The notes beneath the pieces are model-generated. The model saw nothing but the letters and a program-made list of their open reading frames with translations, was not told the origin of the DNA and ran no database searches. 64,000 bases of DNA from Chloroflexota bacterium (GTDB lineage: Bacteria; Chloroflexota; UBA11872), in assembly GCA_026708035.1 (NCBI GenBank), contig JAPOVQ010000025.1, positions 1-64,000 on the forward strand, read 5' to 3'. The stretch's first letter is position 1; every line of letters starts with the position of its first letter. Below are positions 3,257 to 55,283 of this stretch, piece by piece. A program made the translations under genes and the position numbers.

Positions 3257-3967
3257 CTAGACGGCCGCTTTCATCTCCTGGTACTGGGCCTCCATGGTTT
3301 CGTTCACCGCCAGCGTTGCGTCGAGACCATCCGCCAGCGTCTCCAGGGCGCTGCCGGGGACGGCGGCCAGTACGTAGGCGTCGGGGATTTCGGTGAATGT
3401 GCGCATGCCGATGCATCCGAGCGAGATCGACGCCGCCTCTCGCCCCGCGGCCGTCGGCAGCACGCCGCAGGCGGGCCGACCGAACACGCCGTCTTGCGGA
3501 CCGGTCCACAGCGTGCCGCCCAGGCTCTCTTCGAGAAACATCGTCTGCTTGGGCGTCAGCCACAGGATCACGTTGTCGGGCTCGAGCGGAAACGTCGCCA
3601 GCGGACCGTAGACGGCGCCCCTCGGTCCGGGATCGAAATGGGGAATGTGGGGAATCTCCTCTTCGCGGATGTAGGCCAGCGAGCACATGTCGCCGACCAG
3701 ACCCATCAGCTCTTCCTGCTTGGCCGGCGGCAGCTCGAATCCCATCACCATCGCCCCAATGGGACAGCCCATGTGTGCCGCCTCGTCGGCGAAGAACACC
3801 TGCTCCTCGGCGCGGCGCCAAAACGTGCAAGCCGACGGCACCGCGTCGGTCCACGCCGCGATCCCTGACGGGGGCGCGTCCACGCGCGCGACCGCCACCG
3901 GCGGATACTCGAGGTCAAGGACGGTCTGAAGTCGGGTGGCCAGATCGGCATAGGGCGTGGACGTCAT
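3257..3967 (-). CDS. DUF169 family protein
   Basis: Member of the DUF169 (COG2043-like) family, whose biochemical role is not settled; members are about 220-250 residues, as here (236). Seen: a conserved Cys set spread over the protein ([44 protein letters not shown]), which suggests metal or cofactor binding, and [15 protein letters not shown] in the middle. No signal peptide or membrane segment. It is followed 38 bases later by hisI on the same strand, but nothing in the sequence ties the two functionally. I recognise the family by the CxFWR and HxxCPIG segments; no function is proposed. Confidence 0.75.
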
Positions 3968-4116
3968 GCGTGCTCCAAAGGCGCGGCAAGCCCGCCAGCG
4001 TCAGCAGGTAGGCACTGCCACGTTCGTAGGTGGGTCTCTCGATGGTGACACAACGAGCCGGATGAATCCCAAACGTGACGACCGGCGCGTTGATTGACTG
4101 TGATTGACGCCGTTTG

Positions 4117-4554
4117 CTAAGTCGCGGTGGTATGGCACGGACCGCACAGCCCATACACTTCCAGGCTGTGGCCGGTCACGGCGAATCCGGTCTCGAGCTC
4201 AACCTCGCTGGTGATCGCGTCGAACGTGCAGCGTTCGATGATTTCGACGGTGCCACAGGTTTGGCACACGACGTGATGCTGGTCGGGGGTCCGGCGCGCC
4301 AAATAGCGGTGTTGCTCCGGTGAGGGATGCACTGTTTCCACCGCGTCGATGTCCCGCAGCAGGTCCAGCGTGCGGTACACGGTGCTCCGCGACGCATCGC
4401 CATCGGATCGCTGCACCGCGCTGACCAGCTCTCCGGCTGAAATCCCGGCGGGCGCGGCATCGATAGCCGCCAGAATCAGACGCCGCTGTCCGGTGACTCT
4501 GCCGCCCGCATCCCGCAGGGCGGTGAGGGTGCGATTGATCCAGGCGGATTTCAT
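4117..4554 (-). CDS. Fur-family metalloregulator (Fur/Zur/PerR type)
   Basis: Metal-dependent transcriptional repressor of 145 residues. N-terminal winged helix (residues about 10-85: GQRRLILAAIDAAPAGISAGELVSA split by the recognition segment ASRSTVYRTLDLL). C-terminal dimerisation/metal domain has HHVVCQTCG and GLCGPCH, the two CxxC pairs of the structural zinc site, plus the HxH-type segment typical of the sensing site. Zinc, iron and peroxide sensors cannot be separated by eye. It is the only such regulator in the window and could be the protein that binds the shared palindromes at 1466-1490 and 50787-50809, but this pairing is inference. No copy of that palindrome lies upstream of this gene. 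Confidence 0.88.
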   Translation of the reverse strand: MKSAWINRTLTALRDAGGRVTGQRRLILAAIDAAPAGISAGELVSAVQRSDGDASRSTVYRTLDLLRDIDAVETVHPSPEQHRYLARRTPDQHHVVCQTCGTVEIIERCTFDAITSEVELETGFAVTGHSLEVYGLCGPCHTTAT

Positions 4555-4767
4555 GGCGGGGCGTGCGTGAATCGGCGCGCCCCAATTATACGGCCTTTCA
4601 GCATTGACAGAGGGTCTCAGTTGTTTCCGAACTCAGCGGTGGTTTGATCGAGCGCCTCTGGCGCCGCACGTGCGGTGCGCGCATTCTCGGCCAGCCACGC
4701 ATGGCCCCCGCGGCTGGCGTGGCACAATTCCCACTGCGCATCCGACGGCTGAGCCTCACCGCTCGAG

Positions 4768-6012
4768 ATGATCAATCCCCTCCACGCCGCGGCGGGCGCG
4801 CTTATCCTCCGTCGCCTCCATCGGTGGTCCGGCAGCACGCTGCGGCTCAAGCTCCCCGACGGCTCGCGGCGCGACTTCGGTCCCAGCGACGCACCTCGTC
4901 GGGTGCATGCGGACGTCCACCACGCGCGCTTCTTTGCGCGCCTGCTCTTGGGCGGCACGACCGGCGCCGGCGAGTCCTACATGGCCGGCGAATGGTCCAG
5001 CACCGATCTGAAAGCCTTGCTGCAAGAGACGCTGCGCAACGGTCCTCGCCTGGGGTTGGAGTCGCACGCCAGTCTGCTCGCGCGGCTGCTGAACGCGTGG
5101 CGCCATCGGCGGCGGGCCAACACCAAGGTCGGCAGCCAGCGGAACATCCACGCGCACTACGACCTTGGCAACGACTTCTACCGGCTGTTTCTCGACGAGT
5201 CGCTCACCTATTCCTGCGCGCGCTGGCCGGAAGGATGTGACGACCTCGCCACGGCCCAGCGAGCCAAGATGCGGGACATCTGCGACAAGCTGGACCTGGG
5301 CCCCGATCACCACGTGCTCGAGATTGGGAGCGGCTGGGGCGGATTCGCGCTTCACGCCGCCCAAACGACGGGGTGCCGGGTGACCGGCATCACGATTTCG
5401 CGGGAGCAGCTTGAGCATTCACGCAAGCGTGTCGCCGAGGCCGGCTTGCGCGACCGCGTGGATATCCAGTTCTGCGACTATCGCGACATCGACGGGCAAT
5501 ACGACCGCGTGGTCTCCATTGAGATGTTCGAGGCCGTCGGGCGTACCTACTGGCGCTGCTTCTTCGAAGTCTGCGAGCGCGTCTTGCGGCCGGGCGGCCG
5601 GATGCTCCTGCAGACCATCGCCATTCCCGACGCCGACGTCGACCTGCCCTATCGCGGAGCCGGATGGATCAGCCGCTACATCTTTCCGGGCGGACTGTTG
5701 CCGGCCATGTGCGAGATTGCCGAGGCTGCGGCGACGCCGCGCGGCGACCTTGCCGTCCGGATGGTGGACGAGATTGGTCCTCACTACGTCCGCACCCTGG
5801 ATACGTGGCGCTCGCGCTTTTGGAGCCGCATCGACGACGTGCGGCGGCTGGGATTCGACGAGACGTTCGTGCGGATGTGGGACTTCTACTTGGCGACGTG
5901 CTCGGCGGCGTTTGCCGTCGGGCAGACGCGCGATGTCCAGGTGCTGCTCGAGCACTTGGGGCAATCCACCGCGCCCCCGAGCCAGGTCATCACCGCCGGC
6001 GCGGCCTTCTAG
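4768..6012 (+). CDS. cfa: Cyclopropane-fatty-acyl-phospholipid synthase
   Basis: SAM-dependent methyltransferase that adds a methylene bridge, or in some relatives a methyl branch, to unsaturated acyl chains of membrane phospholipids. The 414 residues match family length. Seen: N-terminal lipid-binding region, then IHAHYDLGNDFY (about 127-138) and the SLTYSCA segment, the SAM-binding motif VLEIGSGWGG at 183-192, and VSIEMFEAVG, a hallmark of CFA and mycolic acid cyclopropane synthases. The ATG at 4768 has only a weak ribosome site. The next gene, 121 bases downstream on the same strand, is an acyl desaturase, so the pair would make a double bond and then modify it. Whether the product is cyclopropane or a methyl branch cannot be told. 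Confidence 0.9.
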   Translation: MINPLHAAAGALILRRLHRWSGSTLRLKLPDGSRRDFGPSDAPRRVHADVHHARFFARLLLGGTTGAGESYMAGEWSSTDLKALLQETLRNGPRLGLESHASLLARLLNAWRHRRRANTKVGSQRNIHAHYDLGNDFYRLFLDESLTYSCARWPEGCDDLATAQRAKMRDICDKLDLGPDHHVLEIGSGWGGFALHAAQTTGCRVTGITISREQLEHSRKRVAEAGLRDRVDIQFCDYRDIDGQYDRVVSIEMFEAVGRTYWRCFFEVCERVLRPGGRMLLQTIAIPDADVDLPYRGAGWISRYIFPGGLLPAMCEIAEAAATPRGDLAVRMVDEIGPHYVRTLDTWRSRFWSRIDDVRRLGFDETFVRMWDFYLATCSAAFAVGQTRDVQVLLEHLGQSTAPPSQVITAGAAF

Positions 6013-50785: not shown

Positions 50786-50823
50786 TTTATTGCGACTGCA
50801 TGTCAATAAATGTATATTGCGAC
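50786..50823 (+). promoter_or_regulatory. znu promoter with overlapping Zur-type operators
   Basis: Promoter: -35 TTGCGA at 50790-50795, 17-base spacer, -10 TATATT at 50813-50818. Operator 1 (50787-50809) has arms TTATTG and CAATAA separated by 11 bases and is identical to the box at 1467-1489 in 18 of 23 positions. A second overlapping inverted repeat, CAATA-N6-TATTG (50804-50819), shares its left arm with the first and covers the -10, and ATTGCGAC is repeated at 50789 and 50816. A bound Fur/Zur dimer pair would block RNA polymerase. Zinc-responsive repression is inferred from the operon it controls. Confidence 0.7.
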
Positions 50824-50861
50824 GCTATGTCGGTAAGCAAGTCTCCATCGGAGGTCCGTCT

Positions 50862-52124
50862 GTGAGATTCCGCATCGTGCTCGCCGCGCTCTTCGGCGTG
50901 CTGATCCTGGCTACGGCCTGCGGCGAAAGCGACGAGAGGCCTGAGCGAACCGCGGCCGTTGCGACCCCAACGCCCGCTGCCGCCGAAGCGGCAGCGTCCG
51001 GCGACTCGAGCTCCGAGCCCCTCACGGTCATCGCGACGATCTACCCGCTGGGGTACTTCGCCGAGCGTGTCGGCGGCGACCGCGCTGAAGTCACCGTGCT
51101 CGTTGAACCCGGCGTCGAGGCGCACGGCTACGAAGTCACGGCGTCCGAATTGCGGACGCTCGGCGACGCCGACGTGATCGTGATGAACGGGATCGGTCTC
51201 GAGCCTTGGATGGAACGGGCGATACACGCCGTCGAAGACGAGATTTCGGCGATCGTCGTGGAAGCGGCCGACCCGGCGCTGGCTATGGAAGGCGAAGTCC
51301 ATATGCACGACGACGAAGAAGGCCATCACGACGATGAGGAAGGCCATCACGACGACGAGGAAGGCCATCACGACGACGACGAGGAAGGCCATCACGACGA
51401 CGACGAGGAAGGCCATCACGACGACGACGAGGAAGGCCATCACGACGACGACGAGGAAGGCCATCACGACGACGATGAGGAAGGCCATCACGACGACGAC
51501 GAGGAAGGCCACCACGACGACGAGGAAGGCCATCACGACGAGGACGAAGAAGGCCACCATGACGACGAGGAGGGCCACCACCACCACGGGGAGGGCGGGC
51601 TCGACCCGCACTTCTGGCTAAGCCCGACGATGGCCGCGCGACAGGTCGAGCGCATTCGTGACGCCTTCATCACGGCGGATGCGGCCAACGCCGCCGCCTA
51701 CCGGCAAAGCGCGGACGAACTGATGGCCGAGCTGGCCGACCTGGACCAGGAGTTCAAGGACGGTCTCGGCGCCTGCCAGCACGAGCACTTCGTGACTTCG
51801 CACGCGGCCTACGGCTATCTGGCCGCGCAATACGGCCTCGAGCAGATCGCGCTGGCCGGATTCTCACCGGAAGTGGACCCCTCGCCGCAGCGGCTGGCCA
51901 GCGTCACGGACCGCGTGACCGACCTAGGCCTGGGGCATGTCCTGGTCGAGCCGGTGCTCAGCGACCGCCTCGCGCAGACGGTTGCCCGCGAAACCGGCAT
52001 CGAGCTCCGGGCCATCCACGCCATCGAGAGCGTGACGGGGAACGAGCTCGATGCGCACGGCGATTACTTCGGCCTCATGCGCGACAACCTGGCGGCTCTC
52101 AGGCTCGCCTTGGAGTGCGAGTGA
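50862..52124 (+). CDS. znuA: Zinc ABC transporter substrate-binding lipoprotein 1 with His/Asp-rich loop
   Basis: 420 residues, GTG start after GGAGG with seven-base spacing. Lipobox LATAC (C20). Cluster A-1 metal-binding fold: likely ligands H88 (VEAHGYE), the histidine of LDPHFWLSP (about 250) and that of TSHAAYGYLA, with an acidic residue in HAIESV. Between residues 149 and 246 is an extreme low-complexity loop of 12 units of DDEEGHH or DDDEEGHH, likely a zinc-capturing arm. Its DNA is a run of 21- and 24-bp units (51306-51594), prone to length change. First gene of the znu operon, directly under the palindromic operator. Zinc rather than manganese is indicated by the His-rich loop. Confidence 0.92.
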   Translation: MRFRIVLAALFGVLILATACGESDERPERTAAVATPTPAAAEAAASGDSSSEPLTVIATIYPLGYFAERVGGDRAEVTVLVEPGVEAHGYEVTASELRTLGDADVIVMNGIGLEPWMERAIHAVEDEISAIVVEAADPALAMEGEVHMHDDEEGHHDDEEGHHDDEEGHHDDDEEGHHDDDEEGHHDDDEEGHHDDDEEGHHDDDEEGHHDDDEEGHHDDEEGHHDEDEEGHHDDEEGHHHHGEGGLDPHFWLSPTMAARQVERIRDAFITADAANAAAYRQSADELMAELADLDQEFKDGLGACQHEHFVTSHAAYGYLAAQYGLEQIALAGFSPEVDPSPQRLASVTDRVTDLGLGHVLVEPVLSDRLAQTVARETGIELRAIHAIESVTGNELDAHGDYFGLMRDNLAALRLALECE

Positions 52125-52305: not shown

Positions 52306-52348
52306 CTAGGGCGACGCCGGCCACGCACTTTCGCGTGGGGCGCCCTAG
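52306..52348 (+). other. Stem-loop between the two znuA genes
   Basis: CTAGGGCG (52306-52313) pairs with CGCCCTAG (52341-52348), and inside it CCACGC (52321-52326) pairs with GCGTGG (52333-52338). No T run follows, so it looks like a stabilising or attenuating intercistronic stem rather than a full terminator. A small palindrome GACAC-TAT-GTGTC lies just after (52352-52364). The rest of the 269-base gap shows no gene and no copy of the Zur-type box. Confidence 0.5.
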
Positions 52349-52393
52349 AGTGACACTATGTGTCGAGAAGAAATCGCCGTCGGAGCTTGGTCA

Positions 52394-53617
52394 ATGAGAT
52401 TCCGCATCGTGATCGCCGCCATTCTCGGAGCGCTCGTCTTCACCGCCGCCTGCGGCGAAAGCGACGACGCTTCCGACCGGCTCCAGGTTGTCGCCACGAT
52501 CTATCCGCTGGGGTACTTCGCCGAGCGTGTCGGCGGCGACCGGGCCGAGGTTGAGGTGCTGGTCGGGCCCGGAATCGAGGCCCACAGCTTCGAGCCTACG
52601 CCGTCCGACTTGCTGGCGCTTGGCGATGCCGACGTGATCGTCATGAATGGGATCGGGCTCGAGCCCTGGATGGACGGCGCGATCGACGCCATCGGGGACG
52701 ACCTGACCGCGATCGTCGTGGAGGCGGCCGACCCGACGCGGGCCATGGAAGGCGAGGTTCACACCCACGGTGAGGATGAAGCTGACCACCACGACGATGA
52801 AGGCGACCACGGCCACGAGGACGCCGATGAAGAGGGGCACCACGACGACGAGGATGCCGACGACGAGGGCCATCACCACGACGAAGACGAAGGCGAGCAT
52901 CACGACGAGGAGGCCGATGAAGAGGGCCATCACCACGACGAAGACGAAGGCGAGCACCACGACGAGGATGCCGACGAAGAAGGCCACCACCACGACGAGG
53001 ACGAGGGTGAGCACGGCGACGAAGAGGGGCACCACGACGAAGACGGCGAGCACCACGATGAGGACGGCCACCACGAGGGTGAAGAGAGCGCACTCGACCC
53101 CCACATGTGGCTCAGTCCCACGCTCGCCGCCCTTCAGGTCGAGCGCATCCGCGACGCCCTTGTTTCGGCGGACGCGGACAACGCCGACGGCTACCGGCAG
53201 CGCGCGGATGAACTCATCGCCGAGCTCAACGCCCTGGAGCAGGAGTTCGCGGAGGGTCTCGCCGCTTGCAAGCACGATCACTTCGTGACCTCGCACGCGG
53301 CGTATGGCTACCTGGCCGCGCAATTCGGCCTGGAGCAGATTCCGGTTGCCGGGCTATCCGCCGACGTCGAGCCCTCGCCCCAGCGGCTCGCGAACGTCAC
53401 CGACCGGGTGACGGAGCTGCAGTTGGGCCATGTCCTGGTCGAGTCCGTGCTCAGCGACCGCCTCGCGCAGACCGTCGCCCGCGAAACCGGCATCGAGCTC
53501 CTCACGATCCACGCCATCGAGAGCGTGACGCCGAACGAGCTCGAGGCGCACGGCGACTACTTCGGACTCATGCGTGACAATCTTGCGAACCTCAGGATCG
53601 CCTTGGAGTGTGAATGA
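52394..53617 (+). CDS. znuA: Zinc ABC transporter substrate-binding lipoprotein 2 with His-rich loop
   Basis: 407-residue paralogue of the preceding gene (matching signal MRFRIV..AxFGxL-type and lipobox TAAC, C20; most of the fold nearly superimposable). Ligands H64 (IEAHSFE), H in LDPHMWLSP and H in TSHAAYGYLA. The loop (about 122-234) is His/Asp/Glu-rich but built from different, longer units (DADEEGHHHDEDEGEHH type) than copy 1, so the two loops expanded separately. ATG at 52394. Its stop overlaps the ATPase start by four bases, so this copy is coupled to the transporter core. Confidence 0.92.
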   Translation: MRFRIVIAAILGALVFTAACGESDDASDRLQVVATIYPLGYFAERVGGDRAEVEVLVGPGIEAHSFEPTPSDLLALGDADVIVMNGIGLEPWMDGAIDAIGDDLTAIVVEAADPTRAMEGEVHTHGEDEADHHDDEGDHGHEDADEEGHHDDEDADDEGHHHDEDEGEHHDEEADEEGHHHDEDEGEHHDEDADEEGHHHDEDEGEHGDEEGHHDEDGEHHDEDGHHEGEESALDPHMWLSPTLAALQVERIRDALVSADADNADGYRQRADELIAELNALEQEFAEGLAACKHDHFVTSHAAYGYLAAQFGLEQIPVAGLSADVEPSPQRLANVTDRVTELQLGHVLVESVLSDRLAQTVARETGIELLTIHAIESVTPNELEAHGDYFGLMRDNLANLRIALECE

Positions 53618-54393
53618 CGTGCTCTGAGTCGCCATCGCGTCCCGTCATCGAGTGGGATTGCGTGACGTTCGCCTACGGCGAGACGGTGGCGGTGGAGGAC
53701 GTGTCGCTCACCATCCGTGCCGGGGAGCTGGCGGCGATCTTGGGCCCCAACGGGAGCGGCAAGAGCACGCTGATCCGGCTCGCCCTCGGTCTGCTCCGCC
53801 CGCTATCGGGCGCCGTGCGGCTTTTCGGGCGCGATGCGGTGGACTTCGCCGACTGGGACCGCGTCGGCTACATGCCGCAGGTGATCGCCGGGACCTGGCG
53901 CGACTTTCCCATCACCGTCGCGGAGACGGTGGCCCACGGGGCCTATCGCGGCATCTCCCCCCTCGCGCTGTTTCATCGCTCCGAGCGCCCCGAGGTCATC
54001 GAGGCGCTCGAGGCGGTGGGCATGGCGTCCTACAAGGGGCGGCGTCTGTCGCAACTCTCCGTCGGCCAGCAGCAACGCGTGCTCTTGGCCCGGGCGCTCG
54101 TGCGCCAGCCGGAGCTGATCGTCCTTGACGAGCCCGCGGCCGGCATTGACGTCTCGGGCGAAGAGCAGCTGTACGCCGTCCTGCGCGACCTCAACCGCGA
54201 GCGCAACATCACCATCGTGCTCGTCTCACACGACATCGGGGCCATGCTGCGCGAGGCCGGCACCGTCGCCTGCATGAACCGCACGCTGGTCCGACACGGG
54301 CCGCCCCACGAGCTCACCAACACGGAGATCGCCATGCTCTACGGCGCGCCCGTCGACGTGCTGGTGCACGACGCGCTCCACGAACACCGCTAG
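53614..54393 (+). CDS. znuC: Zinc ABC transporter ATP-binding protein
   Basis: 259-residue ABC ATPase. Walker A GPNGSGKST, Q-loop region YMPQV, signature LSVGQQQR, Walker B LIVLDEPA, and the H-loop in VLVSHDIG are all intact. The C-terminus has several His residues (VHDALHEHR). ATG at 53614 overlaps the stop of the second znuA by four bases and the permease begins two bases after the stop. Powers metal uptake by the metal ABC importer family; zinc assignment follows from context. Confidence 0.93.
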   Translation: MTCSESPSRPVIEWDCVTFAYGETVAVEDVSLTIRAGELAAILGPNGSGKSTLIRLALGLLRPLSGAVRLFGRDAVDFADWDRVGYMPQVIAGTWRDFPITVAETVAHGAYRGISPLALFHRSERPEVIEALEAVGMASYKGRRLSQLSVGQQQRVLLARALVRQPELIVLDEPAAGIDVSGEEQLYAVLRDLNRERNITIVLVSHDIGAMLREAGTVACMNRTLVRHGPPHELTNTEIAMLYGAPVDVLVHDALHEHR

Positions 54394-54395
54394 TC

Positions 54396-55283
54396 ATGCC
54401 GTCGATCTTTCTCTACGAGTTCATGCTGCGCGCCCTGGCCGGCGGCGTGCTCGTGGGCGTGCTGGCGCCCACGCTCGGGATGTTCGTCGTGCTGCGGCGC
54501 TTTTCGCTCATTGCCGACACGCTGGCGCACGTGGCGCTGATGGGCGTGGCCGTGGGACTGGCGACCAATACGTTTCCCTCGGCGGTGGCGCTCGTGGCGG
54601 CCTCGCTTGGGGCCATCATCGTCGAGCAGCTGCGTTCGCGCGGCCGGCTGCCGGGCGACATGGCCCTGGCCGTGGTGCTCTACGGTTCACTCGCGTTTGC
54701 CGTCGTCGTCATTGGGATCGCCGGCGGCTTCAACGTCGACCTCTTCTCGTTCCTGTTTGGTTCCATTCTCAGCGTGTCCCCACTGGACCTGTGGCTCCTC
54801 GCCGGGATCACGGTCACCGTGGTGCTGTTCGTCGGCGTGTTCTTTGTCGACCTGGCGCAAATCGCGTTCGACGACGATCTGGCGAAAGTGAACGGGGTGC
54901 GGACGGGTGCGCTCAACCTGGCGCTGGCGGTGTTGACCGGCGCCACCATCACCCTGTCGATGCGAGTGGTCGGCGTCCTGCTGGTGGGCGCCATGCTCGT
55001 CGTGCCGGTGATGGTTGGGTTGCGCCTCGCGCACGGCCTGCGGTTCGCCATGGCCACGGCCGTCGTCGCCGGGGTGTTCAGCGCCATCGTTGGATTGACC
55101 ATCGCGTTTTACGTCGACGCCTCGGCCGGCGGCGCCACCGTGCTGACGGCCCTGGGCCTGCTCGGACTGGCCTATCTCTTGACCGCTGTACGACGGTGGC
55201 ATCGCCGGGGGCGTGGCGAATCTCCTGTCCCGGCAGCGAGCCCAAACGGACCGCCGGGTCACCGGCACCACCATCACCACTGA
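54396..55283 (+). CDS. znuB: Zinc ABC transporter permease with C-terminal His tail
   Basis: 295-residue metal ABC permease with eight or nine helices. Seen: LAPTLGMFVVLRRFSLIADTLAHVALMG at the N-terminus (the ADALAHA-type motif) and RVVGVLLVGAMLVVPVM, both family hallmarks. The protein ends in a polar tail finishing HRHHHHH, after the last helix and therefore probably cytosolic, which may bind zinc on the inside. ATG two bases after the ATPase stop. Last gene of the operon; a hairpin follows immediately. Confidence 0.92.
   Translation: MPSIFLYEFMLRALAGGVLVGVLAPTLGMFVVLRRFSLIADTLAHVALMGVAVGLATNTFPSAVALVAASLGAIIVEQLRSRGRLPGDMALAVVLYGSLAFAVVVIGIAGGFNVDLFSFLFGSILSVSPLDLWLLAGITVTVVLFVGVFFVDLAQIAFDDDLAKVNGVRTGALNLALAVLTGATITLSMRVVGVLLVGAMLVVPVMVGLRLAHGLRFAMATAVVAGVFSAIVGLTIAFYVDASAGGATVLTALGLLGLAYLLTAVRRWHRRGRGESPVPAASPNGPPGHRHHHHH

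Follow-up and report, generated by a model that had tools for sequence, protein, structure and literature searches.

Described Zur regulons share a Fur-family regulator, a palindromic box lying over the promoter and a core of targets made up of znuABC and COG0523 genes (PMC6103462). The boxes have been described in 7-1-7, 9-1-9 and 23-bp forms, and tandem dimers are known at znu of Escherichia coli (PMC6103462). The COG0523 family has a zinc-linked subset (PMC2770081), and in Vibrio cholerae the M23 endopeptidase ShyB is under Zur control (PMC6381278). Five Chloroflexi genomes are covered by RegPrecise (PMC3840689); for the lineage considered here, no study of Zur came up in our literature searches.

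The window analyzed in this work (the whole stretch of 64,000 nucleotides of the Chloroflexota contig JAPOVQ010000025.1) contains a 23-bp palindrome, and its setting resembles the described regulons in the family of the regulator, the palindromic form of the box, the znuABC and COG0523 targets, the operator over the promoter and the tandem sites at znuA. Judging from sequence comparisons, we consider it likely that the palindrome is a Zur-type operator, at which a dimer of the zinc-loaded Fur-family protein encoded at 4117-4554 would bind and repress four promoters. This kind of system is well known, while its version in this lineage and the M23/aquaporin promoter among the targets look new. 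The znu region is organized as follows:

50787-50809, + strand: putative operator 1 of znuA, TTATTGCGACTGCATGTCAATAA, over the -35 element and most of the spacer
50790-50818, + strand: predicted promoter TTGCGA-N17-TATATT (TTGCGA at 50790, 17-bp spacer, TATATT at 50813), from consensus match and conservation
50814-50836, + strand: putative degenerate operator 2 of znuA, ATATTGCGACGCTATGTCGGTAA, over most of the -10 element and the predicted start-site region
50850-50864, + strand: Shine-Dalgarno sequence GGAGGT and GTG start of znuA1
50862-52124, + strand: znuA1, zinc-type substrate-binding protein (PF01297, E 4.7e-71) with a long loop rich in His/Asp/Glu
52358-53617, + strand: znuA2, paralogue of znuA1 (PF01297); the start is perhaps at 52394
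53614-54393, + strand: znuC, ATPase (ABC_tran; best NCBIfam model AztA, under its cut-off)
54396-55283, + strand: znuB, permease (ABC-3; best NCBIfam model AztB, under its cut-off)

The first-pass annotation had noted a 23-bp palindrome overlapping a -35/-10 pair and recurring once more in the window. Both copies and the promoter are present as it described: TTATTGCGACTGCATGTCAATAA at 50787-50809 and TTATTGCGATATTATCTCAATAA at 1467-1489 are the same at 18 of 23 positions. What had been read as a second, overlapping half-site is in fact the whole degenerate operator 2, which lies 4 bp beyond operator 1 (27 bp from start to start), does not overlap it and is identical to it at 17 of 23 positions; the end coordinate proposed earlier, 50823, splits this operator in half. 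The consensus of the palindrome is roughly TTATTG(A/C)GA(C/T)NNN(A/G)TC(T/G)CAATAA. Its symmetry is near-perfect across the copies, TTATTGAGATGTTATCTCAATAA being perfect but for one central pair. The core, GAYNNNRTC, differs from the AATNATT-like centre of the usual Zur box.

The tandem arrangement, with a spacing of 26-27 bp, was revealed in G000, G001, G002, G004 and G005 (one base shorter in G004). The operator pair over the -35 and -10 elements is kept in all five genus genomes in which the znuA promoter is assembled; six were examined, and the promoter was not found in G003. Such a position over the promoter elements fits repression. A weak palindrome, AGRGTGACACTATGTGTCGAGAA, is also located at 52347-52369, just before or over the znuA2 start, and shares with the box the core GA-AC/GT-TC. 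It is conserved in several genomes, and we rejected it as an operator at a weight-matrix score near zero.

The recurrence of the palindrome had been judged unlikely to arise by chance, and the controls agree. In 100 simulated 64-kb windows with the dinucleotide make-up of the real one, the best chance match reached 16 identities, and shuffled windows contained no match with up to three mismatches. Some matches with two or three mismatches are clearly background (within the yidC gene and before an ammonium transporter). That the box itself is an AT-rich sequence recurring by chance, or a repeat of mobile or structural origin without a regulatory role, we regard as scarcely credible, given the empty controls and the retention of the box at orthologous promoters across genera while the flanking DNA diverged.

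A scan of the 3.46-Mb genome with the symmetric pattern, allowing three mismatches or fewer, yielded three exact matches, the degenerate znuA site and, at a promoter of interest, one match with two mismatches; the remaining matches look like background. In total, five strong copies are found in four promoters: the tandem pair at znuA and single boxes at the M23/aquaporin region, a COG0523 gene and a NikA-like gene. The motif is therefore not scattered over the genome, its strong copies standing at four promoters only, mostly of metal-import genes. The yidC and ammonium-transporter matches mentioned above were set aside. A sequence before an ammonium-transporter-like gene, TTAGTAATATTCTGTAGCAATAA (L044, 4486-4508; G000:C18:12485-12507), has similar forms in G004 and G005 and is probably unrelated to the zinc box.

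Two of the strong copies lie outside the window, upstream of the COG0523 GTPase gene and of a NikABC-like importer, in operons that are convergent and within 6.3 kb of each other. The COG0523 gene (cobW and CobW_C domains), which the first-pass annotation had foreseen as a target, has its box 20 bp upstream and 11 bp after the -10 element of a predicted promoter, TTGAGA-N17-TACCAT. The other box precedes an SBP_bac_5 gene by 19 bp; permease genes of NikB- and NikC-like type come next, and a permease scores above the curated 'nickel transporter permease' cut-off. In this combination of an SBP_bac_5 protein with NikB/NikC-type permeases the operon resembles the CntA and NikABC systems of NCBIfam; unlike them, it has no ATPase genes after it, and the CntA match is far below the cut-off. 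The other foreseen targets, alternative ribosomal proteins and ZinT, did not come up: in the genome-wide scan no strong box was found at ribosomal-protein paralogues, ZinT or the regulator's own gene. The lack of ribosomal-protein paralogues among the strong matches distinguishes this regulon from known Zur regulons, as do its additional targets, NikABC-like and M23/aquaporin.

The motif had also been proposed for examination at the znu promoters of relatives, and there it occupies the same promoters as here. Among six genus genomes, the box was detected at znuA in five (in tandem), at the aquaporin/M23 region in all six, at COG0523 in five of the six (COG0523 being the second gene of its operon in G002 and G003) and at the NikA-like gene in three. 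G004 has, besides, a tandem pair before two genes, the first for a peptide rich in His and Cys (about 80 residues) and the second for a His-rich CDF transporter. At this locus (L080, G004:C5:79000-87000, 3957-5703) the peptide is without a Pfam match, the His-rich part of the CDF protein is its N-terminus, and a Cu/Zn superoxide dismutase is encoded as well, beside znuB/znuC.

In the sister genus, boxes were found at NikA-like genes, at COG0523 and, in weaker form, at a fur-znuA-znuC-znuB operon. In the 24 genomes of the order, the pattern had 32 matches with two mismatches or fewer, and 30 of them lie at znuA, COG0523, NikA-like, His/Cys-rich peptide plus CDF, or the M23/aquaporin intergenic region; the remaining two are located before an ammonium transporter and at a distance of 90 bp from a contig end, respectively. 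With the pattern reversed as a control, the same 24 genomes gave zero matches. A weight matrix trained on the genus and the sister genus was applied to five genomes of the next family that had been left out of the training; it found the box before znuA in four of them (scores 16-31) and gave no score of 16 or above in 1 Mb of simulated sequence.

Elsewhere in Chloroflexota, G045 and G057 have a Fur gene heading znuA-znuC and a 23-bp box with the same outer TTATTGA...TCAATAA arms; in contrast to the box described here, their centre is AAT-N-ATT-like rather than GAYNNNRTC, and their Fur proteins belong to a different clade. Similar palindromes with other centres precede CbiMN (G024, G028) and NicO (G056) genes in distant relatives (L064, L065, L096). 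In G037, G034 and G033, TTATTGGGA...CAATA palindromes occur near a gene of about 1230-1290 codons that contains two ABC-exporter halves (L062, L063, L066). It should be mentioned that four named relatives are Chloroflexota MAGs and that isolate names such as COS3 and RHO3 point to Coscinoderma and Rhopaloeides, reef sponges from the sampling of PMC8163846, which suggests that the group probably lives in sponges.

The window encodes one candidate regulator, located 46 kb from znu:

4117-4554, - strand: the only Fur-family protein of the genome (PF01475, E 1.8e-21), proposed Zur

The Fur-family gene reported at this position in the first-pass annotation is thus confirmed, and each of the six genus genomes has one; a search with the sister genus regulator revealed no further significant Fur-family gene in them. 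The Fur, Zur and PerR models match the window protein about equally. In a tree of 62 Fur-family proteins it groups, with full support, with the protein of G022, whose gene is divergent from znuABC with an operator (score 16.0) in between. The reading of the palindrome as a Zur operator is supported by this adjacency of the regulator's nearest outside relative to znuABC, together with the boxes at znuA and COG0523. A palindrome before the regulator gene (4601-4623) was rejected as an operator, as it is not conserved.

In the sister genus, the znu operon begins with the Fur gene and has the box ahead of it; the product of this gene belongs to a separate clade, 26-34% identical. Because the znu-linked Fur there is of a different clade, the box is older than any one sampled regulator clade. 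The same difference could be taken to mean that a regulator outside the Fur family binds the box, such as one of the two DtxR-family proteins encoded in each genus genome, the Fur gene being unrelated. We find this very improbable, since a Fur-family gene stands next to znu with the box, in various arrangements, in G007-G011, G013-G015, G020, G022 and G023, and 23-bp palindromes are a described form of the Zur box (PMC6103462). The two DtxR-family genes are candidates for iron and manganese control.

Returning to the Fur-family protein as the preferred regulator, Arg56, just before TVYR of the recognition helix, is found in the clade of the window protein and in the znu-linked Fur clade of the sister genus, and in the rest of the order's Fur proteins this position is occupied by Leu or Gln. 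We regard Arg56 as only suggestive, since Arg also occurs there in some of the phylum's distant Fur proteins. In G012 and G021, both incomplete assemblies, the box is present and a search for an Arg56-type Fur gave none. A divergent Fur-like gene of about 130 residues is clustered with COG0523, a 102-residue protein without a Pfam match and a WD40 protein at three loci, near the NikA-like operon in G018 (L086, 11751-15001) and G009 (L087, 1174-3698) and beside znuA in G019 (L144).

C97, C100, C137 and C140 are invariant in the genus and constitute the structural CxxC...CxxC zinc site. The Zur-type sensor ligands in FurB of Mycobacterium tuberculosis are Asp, Cys, His and His; the matching positions here are E73, R87, Q92 and H94, so that two of the four expected ligands are missing and the sensor site is only partly like that of known Zur proteins. 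H76, H82, H93, D91 and C109 lie near the site and could serve as alternative metal ligands. Since the sensor residues are unlike the M. tuberculosis pattern, we infer zinc from the targets: His-rich ZnuA proteins, COG0523 and, in one relative, the His/Cys-rich peptide with CDF.

The same protein and operator could in principle respond to nickel, cobalt, manganese or several metals instead of zinc. The non-canonical sensor residues, the NikABC-like target with its nickel-type permease and the similar palindromes before CbiMN and NicO nickel/cobalt transporters in distant members of the class and phylum point in this direction. We nevertheless consider it rather unlikely, because ZnuABC with His-rich binding proteins and COG0523 are among the best-conserved shared targets, and the boxes before CbiMN and NicO in distant genomes differ in their core and are accompanied there by Leu-type Fur proteins. 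Nickel genes do not dominate the regulon either, NikA-like being the sole nickel-type target in the genus, where znuA and COG0523 prevail; NikA/CntA-type systems can also carry zinc bound to a metallophore.

The other copy in the window, also a putative operator, lies in a divergent intergenic region:

669-1364, - strand: aquaporin of the MIP family, candidate target (PF00230, E 2.7e-56; start codon by judgement)
1467-1489, no strand assigned: putative operator copy, TTATTGCGATATTATCTCAATAA, in 6/6 genus genomes
1556-2854, + strand: EnvC/PcsB-like peptidase of the M23 family with a coiled coil, candidate target (PF01551, E 1.7e-26)

This strong site is separated from the M23 gene by 66 bp and from the aquaporin gene by 102 bp, and lies upstream of both. 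Unlike at znuA, the box overlaps no recognizable promoter: no acceptable one was found in the region in either direction, and GTTGACAAT has no matching -10 element. The latter sequence, located at 1504-1512 between the operator and the M23 gene, is identical in all six genus genomes, while the nearby DNA varies. In sister genera, the box was found at the orthologues of neither the M23 nor the aquaporin gene, and the 1467 site therefore looks like a recruitment at the genus level. The sister genus has M23 genes close to zur-znu; these were rejected as counterparts, having the M23 domain alone in common with the window gene. A Zur-type box ahead of a gene for an M23 peptidase recalls ShyB; unlike that case, the box here stands in a region shared with a divergent aquaporin gene, the candidate target has a coiled coil and resembles EnvC/PcsB, and the host belongs to Chloroflexota. 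The papers found on Zur together with aquaporins do not, from their titles and abstracts, seem to deal with a link between the two.

In the mechanism that we propose, a zinc-loaded dimer of the 4117-4554 protein would bind each palindrome, with two dimers in tandem at znuA. The bound protein would block RNA polymerase by covering the -35/-10 elements of znuA and, in the case of COG0523 and the NikA-like gene, the predicted start region. Under zinc shortage it would release the DNA, allowing ZnuA1-A2-C-B, the COG0523 metallochaperone GTPase and the NikABC-like importer to be made, as well as the M23 cell-wall peptidase and/or the aquaporin from the 1467 site. As for the origin of this arrangement, we tentatively suggest, as a possible though doubtful course of events, that the znu-linked Zur of sister lineages was lost or replaced here by a different Fur clade with an unusual sensor site acting on the same operator type, and that the M23 and/or aquaporin promoter was then recruited into the zinc-starvation response.

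These data provide an uncultured lineage of Chloroflexota with a putative Zur box, a named candidate regulator and a small putative regulon. They may also add another candidate to the cases in which a cell-wall hydrolase is controlled by zinc starvation; such control has so far been described in Gram-negative bacteria, including Vibrio cholerae.
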